Of a stretch of 53,710 nt of DNA, positions 3 through 27,420 are shown piece after piece. A model generated the notes under the pieces. It did no database searches. It was not told the origin of the DNA and was given only the letters and a program-made list of their open reading frames with translations. Numbering within the stretch: the stretch's first letter is position 1; each line of letters begins with the position of its first letter. Source of the DNA: Gemmatimonadota bacterium (lineage in GTDB: Bacteria; Gemmatimonadota; Gemmatimonadetes; Gemmatimonadales; Gemmatimonadaceae); the NCBI GenBank assembly GCA_027622655.1, contig JAQBYI010000021.1, positions 1 through 53,710 on the forward strand. Reading direction: 5' to 3'. The position numbers and the translations under genes were made by a program.

Positions 3-530
3 GCCGCAGCCGACCCCGCTGCGGGCCGCGGCGGCGGTCGTGGTGGACGGGGCGGCGGGGCGGGAGGCCGCGGAGCGGGAGGACGCGGAGCGGGAGGACG
101 CGGAGCGGGAGGACGCGGGGCCGCTGAGCCGAATCCGAACGGGCCCTCCGGCGCTGATACGGTGTTTCACCTGGAGCGACGGTTTACGAACAACCGTGGG
201 GCGCTCGGCTTGGATTTTATTCAGGCGCAGCGTCATCGTCTCCGGGTAATTCACGAGATGGCAGCGGTGATGAAGGACTTTGACCTGTATGTGAGTGGTC
301 AGGGGGACGTTGGCCTTCTCAACCAAACGGGACATCCGGCCGCCGTTTTCCCGTACGCGTTTGGAAAACGCGCAGGACGCGGCGGAGCGCCGGCTGCGGC
401 CGACACGAAGGATCAGCCGCTGTGCGTAACGCTCGTTGGGCAGTTATTTGCCGACGACACGATTCTTTCGGTGGCGCACGCGTTCCAGAAGGCGACCGAC
501 TTCCACCTTCGCAAGCCCACTATCACCTGA
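3..530 (+). CDS. Amidase signature family protein, C-terminal part (5' end outside window)
   Basis: The frame is open from the window edge to TGA at 528-530, so only the last 175 residues are present. Residues from about 55 onward resemble the C-terminal end of amidase signature enzymes (GatA-like): an ALGLDFIQAQRHR helix, a VMKDFDLYVS segment, LLNQTGHPAAVFPYAF, then QPLCVTLVGQLFADDTIL and a final AHAFQKATDFH helix. The catalytic Ser-cisSer-Lys region would lie upstream and cannot be checked. The first ~40 residues are an odd Gly/Arg-rich low-complexity stretch (RGAGGRGAGG type) encoded by 15-bp tandem repeats, apparently an insert ahead of the conserved C-terminal part. Substrate unknown. 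pabA follows after 27 nt. Confidence 0.75.
   Translation, partial: AAADPAAGRGGGRGGRGGGAGGRGAGGRGAGGRGAGGRGAAEPNPNGPSGADTVFHLERRFTNNRGALGLDFIQAQRHRLRVIHEMAAVMKDFDLYVSGQGDVGLLNQTGHPAAVFPYAFGKRAGRGGAPAAADTKDQPLCVTLVGQLFADDTILSVAHAFQKATDFHLRKPTIT
60..119 (+). repeat. 15-bp tandem repeat, four copies, encoding Gly/Arg-rich linker
   Basis: Four consecutive 15-bp units of the form GCGGGAGGACGCGGA lie at 60-74, 75-89, 90-104 and 105-119. The two middle copies are identical and the outer two differ by one base each. Because the unit is a multiple of three, each copy adds five residues (Ala-Gly-Gly-Arg-Gly) and changes in copy number would keep the amidase frame. The flanking sequence is also Gly/Arg rich, which suggests expansion by slippage. 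Confidence 0.9.
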
Positions 531-557
531 CAGGTACGCCTCATACCTGCTGTCGCA

Positions 558-1157
558 ATGATTCTGGTTGTCGATAACTACGACTCGTTCACGTACAACC
601 TCGTCCAGTATCTCGGTGAACTGGGCGAGAAAGTGCGCGTGGCGCGCAATGACGCAGTGTCGGTGGACGATGTGCGCGCCATGCGTCCGGACGCCGTCGT
701 GCTTTCTCCGGGTCCCTGTACTCCCGCCGAGGCAGGTATTTGCGTCCCGATAGTGCGCGAACTCGGCCCGCTCATACCGATACTCGGCGTATGTCTCGGA
801 CATCAGGCGATTGGCGCCGCGTACGGCGGTCGAGTAGTGCGAGCACCGCGGGGGGTGATGCACGGAAAGACCTCTCCGATCCGTCACTCGGAAACGGGCC
901 TGTTTGACGGCCTGCCGAACCCATTGACGGTGATGCGCTATCACTCGCTGATAGTAGACGCGAATGGATTTCCCGATGAGCTTGCCATCGATGCCACGGC
1001 CGTCGACGACGATTCGGAGATCCACGCCCTGCATCACCGGGAGCACCCGATCTGGGGGGTTCAGTTCCACCCGGAATCGATTCTCACCGACAGTGGCCTG
1101 GCTCTCGTCGCGAACTTCTTGCGAATGGCCCGCAGTCGAGTGGCTCTGCCGGCGTAG
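558..1157 (+). CDS. pabA: Aminodeoxychorismate/anthranilate synthase glutamine amidotransferase component II
   Basis: A class I glutamine amidotransferase of 199 residues, the usual length for PabA/TrpG. It releases ammonia from glutamine for a chorismate-using partner, leading to para-aminobenzoate (folate) or anthranilate (tryptophan). The N-terminus MILVVDNYDSFTYN is diagnostic, as are SPGPCTPAEAG (50-60), the nucleophile elbow GVCLGHQ with Cys79, and FHPES with His171 and Glu173 completing the triad. The start ATG gives the family-standard N-terminus. The partner component I is not in the window, so PabA and TrpG cannot be separated. A terminator-like hairpin follows, isolating it from kdsB. 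Confidence 0.93.
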   Translation: MILVVDNYDSFTYNLVQYLGELGEKVRVARNDAVSVDDVRAMRPDAVVLSPGPCTPAEAGICVPIVRELGPLIPILGVCLGHQAIGAAYGGRVVRAPRGVMHGKTSPIRHSETGLFDGLPNPLTVMRYHSLIVDANGFPDELAIDATAVDDDSEIHALHHREHPIWGVQFHPESILTDSGLALVANFLRMARSRVALPA

Positions 1158-16661: not shown

Positions 16662-17492
16662 ATGGCGCCGGCTCCCGTGACGGCGGGCGTACGGTTCTGG
16701 AAAATGACCGGTTCGGGCAACGACTTCGTGTTTATCGACGAAAGCACCCAGGCCACCACTGGGCTCGACACCCCGGACTCCATTCGCCGTATTTGCTCTC
16801 GAACCGACGGCGTCGGCGCAGACGGAGTCGTCTTTCTGCGACACGGAGGATCCGACGGAACCGCTATCCGCTACTACAACTGTGATGGAAGCCGCGGCGA
16901 ACTCTGCGGAAACGCATCGCTGTGCACCGCGAACCTGTCGGTGCAGCTCGGCTTGGGCGGGGCGGGCGGTTTCACGTTTGGAACCGACGTCGGCCAAATG
17001 CAGGCCCGGATCGTCAACGGGAGTCCTGAGATAGATCTTCAGCCGGTCAGCGACGTGGCAGCCAACGCCGGAATCAGTCTGGAACGGGGCGAGCTTCGGA
17101 TCGGATACGCCAATACCGGGGTGCCGCACCTCGTGGTCCTGGTAAGCGACGCCGAAGCCGTGAACCTGGCCGCACGCGGAGCGCCATTGCGACACCATCC
17201 GACGCTGTCAGCAGGGGCGAACGTCAACTTCGTGGCAAAGACAGCCGCTGGATGGCGGATGCGGACCTACGAACGTGGTGTCGAGGGTGAGACGCTTGCT
17301 TGCGGCACTGGCGCGGTAGCCTGTGCGATCATGCTCGCCAGCTGGGGCTTGGCTGAGGACGGCTCGGTGGACCTGCTCACAAGTTCCGGCCGAACCCTAA
17401 CAGTGTCTTTAGGGCGGCGTCCGGACGGTTACAGCCCCTCATTGCGGGGCGAGGGCAGGATCGTGTTCACCGGCCACTTAGTCGATCTGTGA
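16662..17492 (+). CDS. dapF: Diaminopimelate epimerase
   Basis: Converts LL- to meso-diaminopimelate for lysine and peptidoglycan. 276 residues from ATG 16662. The N-terminal KMTGSGNDFVFIDE (14-27) is diagnostic. The two catalytic cysteines are Cys82 in GELCGNASLC and Cys214 in ETLACGTGAVAC, placed symmetrically in the two half-barrels. The motif around the first is unusual (usually AxMCGNGxRC-like). Alternatives are ATG 16704, which would remove the first strand, and upstream in-frame codons reaching back into the preceding GT2, which add non-family sequence. It is the last + strand gene before the strand switch. Confidence 0.93.
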   Translation: MAPAPVTAGVRFWKMTGSGNDFVFIDESTQATTGLDTPDSIRRICSRTDGVGADGVVFLRHGGSDGTAIRYYNCDGSRGELCGNASLCTANLSVQLGLGGAGGFTFGTDVGQMQARIVNGSPEIDLQPVSDVAANAGISLERGELRIGYANTGVPHLVVLVSDAEAVNLAARGAPLRHHPTLSAGANVNFVAKTAAGWRMRTYERGVEGETLACGTGAVACAIMLASWGLAEDGSVDLLTSSGRTLTVSLGRRPDGYSPSLRGEGRIVFTGHLVDL

Positions 17493-17497
17493 CCGCC

Positions 17498-17506
17498 TTA
17501 TCCACA
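17498..17506 (+). other. Perfect DnaA-box sequence next to dif
   Basis: TTATCCACA matches the strongest E. coli DnaA box exactly and lies 15 bp from the dif core, within 6 nt of the dapF stop. I see no further good boxes nearby (CTATCCCCA at 17592 is degenerate), so this is not evidence of an origin. Function unknown; chance is possible. Confidence 0.4.
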
Positions 17507-17521
17507 GGGTTGTTGCTAAGT

Positions 17522-17549
17522 ACTTTACATAATACATATTATACGTACT
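17522..17549 (-). other. dif: dif-like XerC/XerD chromosome dimer resolution site
   Basis: Read on the minus strand, 17549-17539 is AGTACGTATAA (XerC-type arm), 17538-17533 is TATGTA (central hexamer) and 17532-17522 is TTATGTAAAGT (XerD-type arm). By my alignment from memory, 21 of 28 positions match E. coli dif and 22 of 28 match B. subtilis dif; the XerD arm begins with the near-invariant TTATGTAAA. The site lies between convergent dapF and the TPR gene, at the only strand switch in the window, in an AT-rich patch of a GC-rich region. All this fits the terminus site where XerCD, activated by FtsK, resolves chromosome dimers. XerC, XerD and FtsK are not in the window. Confidence 0.85.
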
Positions 17550-17622
17550 ACTCCTACTTAACGACCTGCACGATGTGAGTGCTGTAACTTGCTATCCCCA
17601 GACGGTTTACATCAGTGAGGTG

Positions 17623-18285
17623 CTACGGCGTGGCGGCTTTGGCGTCCATCTCGCCAAGACGGACGCGGGCCTCCGTCATGACCGGTGAGTCCGTAATGGA
17701 TGCCAGTTCAGCCCAAATCACTCGAGCATCAGCCGGCCTGCCGGCGATCGTAAGCATTCTGGCGGCATCGGCCCGGTATAGCTGCCGTTCGGTCGGAAAC
17801 TGAGCTTTGTCGGCAGCCATCATCAGGTGCTCAGCGGCTTCTGCCGGGCGCCCAGAATCCGCGTATCCGGCTGCCATCAGTTCTTCCACAACCGCGGCGA
17901 ACTGGACTGGGGCTCCGCCCTGAATCTCGCTCAGCTGGCTGATTCCCTCGTCGTACTTGGCCTCGCCGTACAGCAACTGAGCAAGGAGCATTCCCGCCTG
18001 CGTCGCCCCGGTGGTGCCAGGATACCGGGTCACCAGCTTCTCGAGGTCCGATTTGGCTAGAGCCGCATTCCCCGAGTAGTAGGCGCCTTGGGCAGCGACC
18101 ATGGCTGCGTCGGCCCGGTCATTCTTGAGGCGGATCGACTGCTGCCAGAAAGCGAATGCTGAGCCGCCAACCACAACCGCGCTGACGGTGATCAGCAGAG
18201 GGCGGCTGCGAGCGACGACCCAGTCTTTTATGCGTTCGGCGTCCCAGTCGTTATCTGGCTTCGACACCGGTGATGACGTGCCCAT
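17623..18285 (-). CDS. Single-pass membrane TPR protein, YfgM-like
   Basis: 220 residues. A charged N-terminus with DWDAERIKDWVVARSR is followed by one transmembrane helix (PLLITVSAVVVGGSAFAFW, about 29-47) and then an extracytoplasmic helical repeat domain: DAAMVAAQGAYYSGNAALAKSDLEKLV, QAGMLLAQLLYGEAKYDEGISQL, EELMAAGYADSGRPAEAAEHLMMAA and ADAARMLTIAGRPADARVIWAEL. This is the layout of YfgM-type ancillary translocon proteins and related TPR_21 proteins; I cannot assign a partner. It is the minus strand gene closest to dif and lies downstream of tRNA-Arg, with a GGAG-type ribosome site before its ATG. Confidence 0.8.
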   Translation of the reverse strand: MGTSSPVSKPDNDWDAERIKDWVVARSRPLLITVSAVVVGGSAFAFWQQSIRLKNDRADAAMVAAQGAYYSGNAALAKSDLEKLVTRYPGTTGATQAGMLLAQLLYGEAKYDEGISQLSEIQGGAPVQFAAVVEELMAAGYADSGRPAEAAEHLMMAADKAQFPTERQLYRADAARMLTIAGRPADARVIWAELASITDSPVMTEARVRLGEMDAKAATP

Positions 18286-26271: not shown

Positions 26272-27420
26272 TTACCAGCGATACGACGCGCCAGACCCGG
26301 TGTTGAACACCACCACTCGGGCATCCGGGTCAACGAGTCCGGCCGACGCGAGCATGCCTGCCACAGCAAGTGCGCAGCCGCCCTCGGGCGCAGCGTCGAT
26401 CCCGCAAGTAGACGCGAGACGAAGCGTATCTGCGCGCATCGTATCCTCGTCCACGGCGAACGCACCGCCATTGCTGTCCTTGAGCGTCCGGAGCACGAGT
26501 CGGTCACCAAATGGACCGGGCACGCGTAGCCCGCTCGCGTGGGTGGCGGGATTCTCCCACGGTGTCGCATGGTCGGCACCGGCAGTGAACGCCCGCACGA
26601 GCGGTGCACATCCGGATGCCTGCGCTACGATCATCTTCGGAAGTCGCACGTCCGCGGCGAGCCAACCCCACTCAATCATTTCCTGGAACGCCTTCCAGAT
26701 TCCAATCGTTCCCTCTCCGCCGCCCGTCGGATACACGAGCGCGTCCGGCAAGTCGCGCCAGCCGAATGCTTCGGCGATCTCGTAGCCCATCGTCTTCATC
26801 CCTTCAACGCGGTACGGCTCGCGCACGGTCGCCACGTTGAAGTATCCGCTCTCCGTGGCAAACGCTTTGGTTGCCTTGCCCGCGTCGCCAATGTGGCCAT
26901 CAACGAGGACCAGCTCGGCACCATACGCCCGAATGCTTCCGAGAATCGGCGGTGGCGTCGTTTGTGGCGCATAAATGCGCGCCGGCATTCGCGCGGCGGC
27001 GGCGTACGCGGCGAGCGCAATTCCGGCGTTCCCGGCTGTCGGAACACACAACCCCTTCAGTCCAAGCGCCTTGGCCCGCGTCACTGCCATGCACAGCCCA
27101 CGCGCCTTGAAACTGGCCGTCGGGTTCGATCCCTCGTCCTTGATCCAGACGCGCCCGACACCCGCATGCGCCGCGAACTCCGGCACCTCGATCAGTGGTG
27201 TCATTCCCTCGCCAAGCGATACCCGCACCTCACCATCGCGTATCGGCATAGTGTCTGAATACCGCCACATGGTCGGCTCGGTCGTCACGGAAGCCATCGC
27301 GGCAGGCCGATGCTTTACCATCAGCGGCAGCCCGCAGTCAGGGCAGACCGACGCCAGGCCGTCGCCCGAAGCCGTGTACGAACAGGCCGAGCAGTGGAGT
27401 GTCCATATCGCTTCCGTCAT
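26272..27420 (-). CDS. thrC: Threonine synthase-like PLP enzyme (fold type II)
   Basis: 382 residues. An N-terminal zinc-ribbon-like segment has Cys10, Cys13, Cys26 and Cys29. The catalytic domain follows: LGEGMTPLIEVPEF (69-82), WIKDEGSNPTASFKARG with the PLP lysine at Lys105, PTAGNAGIALAAYAAAARMPA (phosphate loop/substrate site), ALVYPTGGGEGTIGIWKAF (PLP phosphate cup) and a final VVFNTGSGASYRW. This fits threonine synthase (O-phosphohomoserine to threonine), but the usual GSFKDRG is ASFKARG here, so a related substrate is possible. It overlaps the uvrC stop by 4 nt. No thrA or thrB is nearby. Confidence 0.82.
   Translation of the reverse strand: MTEAIWTLHCSACSYTASGDGLASVCPDCGLPLMVKHRPAAMASVTTEPTMWRYSDTMPIRDGEVRVSLGEGMTPLIEVPEFAAHAGVGRVWIKDEGSNPTASFKARGLCMAVTRAKALGLKGLCVPTAGNAGIALAAYAAAARMPARIYAPQTTPPPILGSIRAYGAELVLVDGHIGDAGKATKAFATESGYFNVATVREPYRVEGMKTMGYEIAEAFGWRDLPDALVYPTGGGEGTIGIWKAFQEMIEWGWLAADVRLPKMIVAQASGCAPLVRAFTAGADHATPWENPATHASGLRVPGPFGDRLVLRTLKDSNGGAFAVDEDTMRADTLRLASTCGIDAAPEGGCALAVAGMLASAGLVDPDARVVVFNTGSGASYRW

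Follow-up and report, generated by a model that had tools for sequence, protein, structure and literature searches.

Introduction

The locus described here raises the question of whether a 28-bp sequence lying between two convergent genes of a Gemmatimonadota bacterium is the chromosomal dif, and whether dif stands there alone or together with a further conserved element. Chromosomal dif is described as measuring 28 bp and being under the control of FtsK (PMC5357621). In the Gemmatimonadota, Tomasch et al. (2024; PMC11237797) inferred ter from skew and gene strand in a text without Xer, DnaA or dapF, to which the present work adds the precise dif and the accessory box reported below. An earlier note on the window, i.e., the whole stretch of 53,710 nucleotides that was analyzed, had placed a dif on its minus strand at 17522-17549 and had remarked that few dif sites are described in this phylum. 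The remark holds, but Kono et al. (2011; PMC3025954) predicted a dif for one Gemmatimonadetes genome; their main text is silent on sequences that flank dif or assist it. Because of this earlier prediction, the dif part of our finding is ordinary.

Identification of the dif site

The minus strand at 17522-17549 reads AGTACGTATAATATGTATTATGTAAAGT, which has the format of dif, i.e., 28 bp with two 11-bp arms flanking a 6-bp center (Table 1). The order of XerC arm, center and XerD arm was as the earlier note had proposed, and its estimate of 21-22 shared positions proved accurate, with an identity of 21/28 to the E. coli dif and 22/28 to the B. subtilis dif. The best match to either reference in 200 shuffled windows was 19/28. 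When the window was searched with a dif-like pattern allowing up to three mismatches, this site was the one match, and 100 dinucleotide shuffles yielded zero. No second dif within three mismatches of the core pattern was found in the draft genome (3.145 Mb in 115 contigs, 99.7% complete). A TTTACAT at 17606, previously read as a partial XerD arm, is uninformative and attributable to chance, since the heptamer occurs six times on the two strands of the window, once within dif itself.

Table 1. Features of the dif locus, in coordinates of the window
Feature	Position	Strand	Remarks
dapF, diaminopimelate epimerase	16662..17492 (start approximate)	+	TIGR00652, 176.7 bits
Accessory box TTATCCACA (TGTGGATAA on dif strand)	17498..17506	+	DnaA-box-like, pointing at dif
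15-bp spacer, box to XerD arm	17507..17521	.	Second tandem box here in many relatives, absent in window
dif, 28 bp	17522..17549	-	XerC arm AGTACGTATAA, center TATGTA, XerD arm TTATGTAAAGT
Putative XerD-binding arm TTATGTAAAGT	17522..17532	-	28-mer columns 18-23 invariant or nearly so
Central region TATGTA	17533..17538	-	Differs among genera
Putative XerC-binding arm AGTACGTATAA	17539..17549	-	Placed by analogy with E. coli dif
TPR_21-domain protein	17623..18285	-	PF09976; convergent with dapF

The genome also encodes the expected proteins. XerD was recognized by TIGR02225 at 361 bits (cut-off, 329.6), a XerC candidate scored 331.6 bits against TIGR02224, about 3.5 bits below the equivalog cut-off of 335.2, and FtsK is a protein of 845 aa with alpha, motor and gamma domains. 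A search for xerC and xerD, which the earlier note had recommended, thus found both genes, and FtsK-gamma as well. The note had also called for an FtsK-orienting motif whose polarity switches at dif. The KOPS-type GGGNAGGG was polarized towards dif in eleven terminus regions, with 71 copies on the leading and 11 on the lagging strand when 454 kb around eleven dif sites were pooled; KOPS would be expected to behave in this way, and leading-strand codon bias contributes to skews of this kind. The system resembles those of E. coli and B. subtilis, in which dif is acted on by XerCD (CodV/RipX) and FtsK/SpoIIIE, in its 28-bp two-arm site at the skew switch and in its XerC and XerD, FtsK-gamma and polarized GGGNAGGG; many Gemmatimonadota differ from both in having, at a set distance from dif, an accessory box.

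Position relative to the replication terminus

Cumulated over the window, the GC skew peaked at 17465, so the inflection that had been predicted falls within 57 bp of dif. No other 50 bp of the window are as AT-rich as those of the dif site (28% GC at 17510-17513), in agreement with the AT-rich patch noted earlier, and the site does lie between convergent genes, with dapF on the plus strand and the TPR gene on the minus strand. The claim that this is the only strand switch was essentially right, in that ORFs are on the plus strand before dif and on the minus strand after it; it did not stand for two ORFs, at 444-1070 (minus) and 26539-27258 (plus), that matched nothing in Pfam, and ORF calling was noisy over dapF. 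The window fits the published description of a region of high strand bias around ter in Gemmatimonadota, in which the strands switch where the skew peaks (Tomasch et al., 2024; PMC11237797).

When 40 kb around dif were analyzed in ten relatives, the skew maximum was within ~140 bp of dif in six (G106, G108, G151, G158, G105, and G104) and not at dif in the other four (G033, G079, G030, and G021). In five of six long assemblies, dif was 42-49% of the contig away from dnaA (G158, 49; G151, 48; G033, 48; G108, 45; G106, 42), and in the sixth the distance was 26% (G079). Dif and the point of replication termination need not coincide (PMC3025954); dif is at most a candidate for the exact meeting point of the forks.

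Conservation of the site and its gene neighborhood

A 24-bp core pattern with up to three mismatches matched in 239 of 300 Gemmatimonadota genomes, almost always in single copy, and the same pattern written backwards matched in 2/300. The 28-bp core, for which the earlier note had expected conservation among close relatives, is thus kept across the phylum. In an alignment of dif loci, columns 5 and 8-11 of the 28-mer, in the XerC arm, were near-invariant, and information was lower in columns 12, 14, 15, and 17, in the center. Public records with the same core were mostly named Gemmatimonadota, and also included Bartonella, lactobacilli, Acinetobacter and others. The Bartonella records matched the 24-bp core exactly and carried an extra ACGTAT just before the XerC arm (L033, L034, L041, L044, L045, L047, L058, and L076).

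The dapF-TPR intergenic region had been proposed for comparison among relatives, and both dif and gene order were found to be kept. Dif was downstream of dapF and in the same orientation at every locus where dapF was found (113/113), and it preceded the TPR gene at all 100 of the 100 loci where that gene was found. GT2, apt, pcm, surE and others occurred in the same order around dif in many relatives. Dif and its gene neighbors have stayed together across an order.

Two observations concern the assemblies. Several contigs of metagenome-assembled genomes end exactly at dif or within ~100 bp of it (G006:C282, G086:C5, and G245:C13, with their ends at dif, and also G011:C63/C119 and G142:C117/C184), as if the assembly graph branches there through strain variation or elements integrated at dif. 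Four assemblies (G070, G075, G038, and G121) had two dif copies, possibly from a mixture of strains in the bin; in G070 and G075 each of the two copies had its own box and the spacers differed.

None of the observations that might have spoken against a chromosomal dif, i.e., a better match elsewhere, a skew without inflection, or an unconserved core, came up, and we found no evidence against this identity. The placement of dif at 17522-17549 on the minus strand was borne out by its uniqueness in the genome, its position near the skew maximum and its phylum-wide conservation. It is very probably the chromosomal dif of this bacterium and, in this lineage, an extended site with a box that would be bound by another protein, one acting at dif or together with it.

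An accessory box beside dif

The earlier note missed this accessory box. We aligned 134 distinct dif loci and scored the box as 7 or 8 of 8 matches to TGTGG(A/G)nAA. The DNA flanking dif was unconserved except for the box; the only informative stretch of the flanks lay downstream of the XerD arm and the other flank columns were low in information, on which ground chance or shared ancestry of the flanking DNA was rejected as the origin of the box. The 9-bp box was present in 115 of the 134 loci, starting 15 bp (75 loci), 16 bp (39 loci) or 17 bp (one locus) after the 28-mer; further out, the background of such matches was 2.4e-4 per position. Its consensus is TGTGGAnAA, or TTnTCCACA when read towards dif, and G2, G4, and A8 were invariant in the 115 loci. 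A second, looser box often followed in tandem 10 bp nearer dif; no such nearer copy was found in the window. Further out on the XerD side, an inverted TCTCCAC was weakly enriched (17 at offsets 25-60 vs. 3 at 84-119).

An exact XerD-arm-plus-box pattern matched in 117/300 genomes and its backwards version in none; these genomes are related, so such counts are not independent (exact-box genera, 43/118). Dif-linked exact matches came from families f1, f2, f6, and f7, with zero in f5, f8, and f10, and exact matches away from dif amounted to one each in G014 and G007, plus a match in G305. Family f5 included 12 genomes in which the box lay on the XerC side, separated from dif by ~9-11 bp and likewise directed towards it, and no locus had a box on both sides. 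Since dif lacked a box in most f5 genomes inspected and in f9 and f10, the box is not universal. The box was likewise not found at the XerD-arm spacing in 12 viral contigs with the dif core, nor at dif-core loci in a small outgroup sample of non-Gemmatimonadota (Bartonella, lactobacilli, Acinetobacter and others).

Candidate proteins for the box

We give about an even chance to a protein different from DnaA, an accessory factor that would recognize the box by its sequence, have an architectural, segregation or fork-arrest role, and be common to dif and the parAB locus. The R-box consensus of E. coli is TTWTNCACA (PMC4585315), and only 9/115 dif-side boxes fit it, most being TTCTCCACA, TTGTCCACA or TTTCCCACA; position 3 of the exact dif-side boxes is mostly C or G. 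Among ~150 relatives, tandem boxes occur mainly at dif and at the parAB/Nif3 locus, and in eight genomes those with the 10-bp register seen at dif lie 3' of parB or bactofilin and precede a gene for a BMP-type lipoprotein or Nif3 (tandem TTnTCCACA at L331, L332, L334, L335, L343, L349, L353, and L357). Both the departure from the R-box and this distribution point to another protein. Against it, no candidate protein has emerged, and the sequences overlap those of known DnaA boxes, the window copy TTATCCACA being a perfect one.

Because the box resembles a DnaA box in sequence, DnaA is the leading named candidate, and a tentative one. The window box TTATCCACA fits TTWTNCACA exactly, and the tandem copies 10 bp apart are a further likeness to DnaA boxes; the dif-side boxes differ from these in being at the terminus rather than the origin and in having mostly other sequences. 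In the genomes inspected, the dnaA promoter has a box of its own, TT[A/T/G]TCCACA, directly after TTGAC. This box and the similarly built tandem boxes at the parAB/Nif3 locus hint at DnaA. The combined TTGACTT[A/T/G]TCCACA, with the box right after a -35-like TTGAC, was conserved at L216-L231, e.g., at L229 (G000:C106), which suggests autoregulation. At box position 4, 24/115 dif-side boxes have C, where the dnaA promoter boxes seen have T. The pattern TTnTCCACA is not enriched in the genome (24 occurrences vs. 21 for the backwards pattern), and around dnaA only single strong boxes were found, with no box cluster of the kind that marks oriC.

The tandem boxes downstream of parB were considered as an origin, which was unsupported, as the GC-skew minimum was not there in the regions read. 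Separately, tandem TTTTCCACA occurred within an AT-rich patch in G151 (G151:C1:1143892; L358, L399-L400) and G152 (L359); in G151 the GC skew turns from negative to positive there, which is origin-like, far from dnaA. Frames of ~590-810 aa that match the DnaA AAA+ region twice were seen at G106:C1:1693232-1694875 and, in similar form, in G108, G158, G151, G005, G164, G079, and G055; these apparently encode a duplicated DnaA-like AAA+ protein.

Given the misfit to the R-box, the lack of an oriC cluster, the skew at the parAB locus and the lack of TTnTCCACA enrichment, we regard DnaA as possible and an unnamed accessory protein as the likelier binder. On the doubtful premise of DnaA, the initiator may bind beside dif in most Gemmatimonadales at a fixed distance from XerD, linking it to the terminus and dimer resolution. 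There it could conceivably, if with no great probability, act as an activator, as a brake, or as a terminus sink for DnaA timed by the completion of replication. Titles and abstracts on DnaA boxes with dif or XerD described no such arrangement, in a search that covered few subscription journals.

Other explanations of the box and of the site

The box might instead be a KOPS-like motif on which FtsK loads or orients itself next to dif, as its constant polarity to dif and the gamma domain of FtsK would allow. This is improbable and was rejected on strand distribution, as TGTGGAnAA was found 3 times on the leading and 8 times on the lagging strand, dif-side copies included, vs. 71 and 11 for GGGNAGGG in the same 454 kb around eleven dif sites.

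Also improbable is a plain dif beside which conserved gene order has kept an element that regulates, or belongs to the end of, dapF or the TPR gene. The constant orientation of both genes to dif agrees with such an element. It is strongly disfavored by the spacing, since the dapF stop can be anywhere between 24 and 903 nt away from dif whereas the box keeps to 15-16 bp, so that the box belongs to dif and not to the gene, and also by the change of side in f5. An intrinsic terminator at the box was rejected, as no terminator-like stem was found. That the 28-mer is part of an integrated, Xer-dependent mobile element, a reading to which the exact breaks of some relatives' contigs at dif might lend support, has a negligible probability, as the site is single-copy, at the skew maximum and within a GT2-dapF-dif-TPR-apt order conserved across an order, and no integrase was found among the five neighboring proteins scanned.

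Proposed mechanism

The dif with its box would operate as follows. By analogy with E. coli, XerC and XerD would bind the two arms of dif, and FtsK, steered by the KOPS-like GGGNAGGG on both replichores, would reach dif at the septum and activate XerD, after which two strand exchanges would resolve chromosome dimers. A further protein would bind the box, which lies some one and a half turns of the helix away from the XerD arm; this protein could touch XerD or FtsK, give the synapse its shape or serve as a label for the terminus. The 10-bp register of the tandem boxes and their constant spacing favor a protein that always faces the same way with respect to XerD along the helix, and the switch of side in f5 speaks for proximity to dif as more important than any specific contact with XerD.

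A comparable architecture is known from plasmids. The Xer site cer has ~180 bp of accessory sequences for ArgR and PepA (PMC5357621). Like cer, the Gemmatimonadota site would combine a recombination core with adjacent, here putative, accessory protein sites; it differs in that its boxes, single or paired, are 9 bp long and lie mostly on the side of XerD.

Biological significance

These results place dif to the base in a phylum in which skew and strand bias had been the main guides to the terminus. The conserved box is the more interesting part of the finding. Since XerCD and FtsK are, by existing descriptions, all that a chromosomal dif requires, the constant presence of a second protein site suggests that dimer resolution is under additional control in these bacteria. 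If the protein at the box were DnaA, initiation and termination would be coupled.
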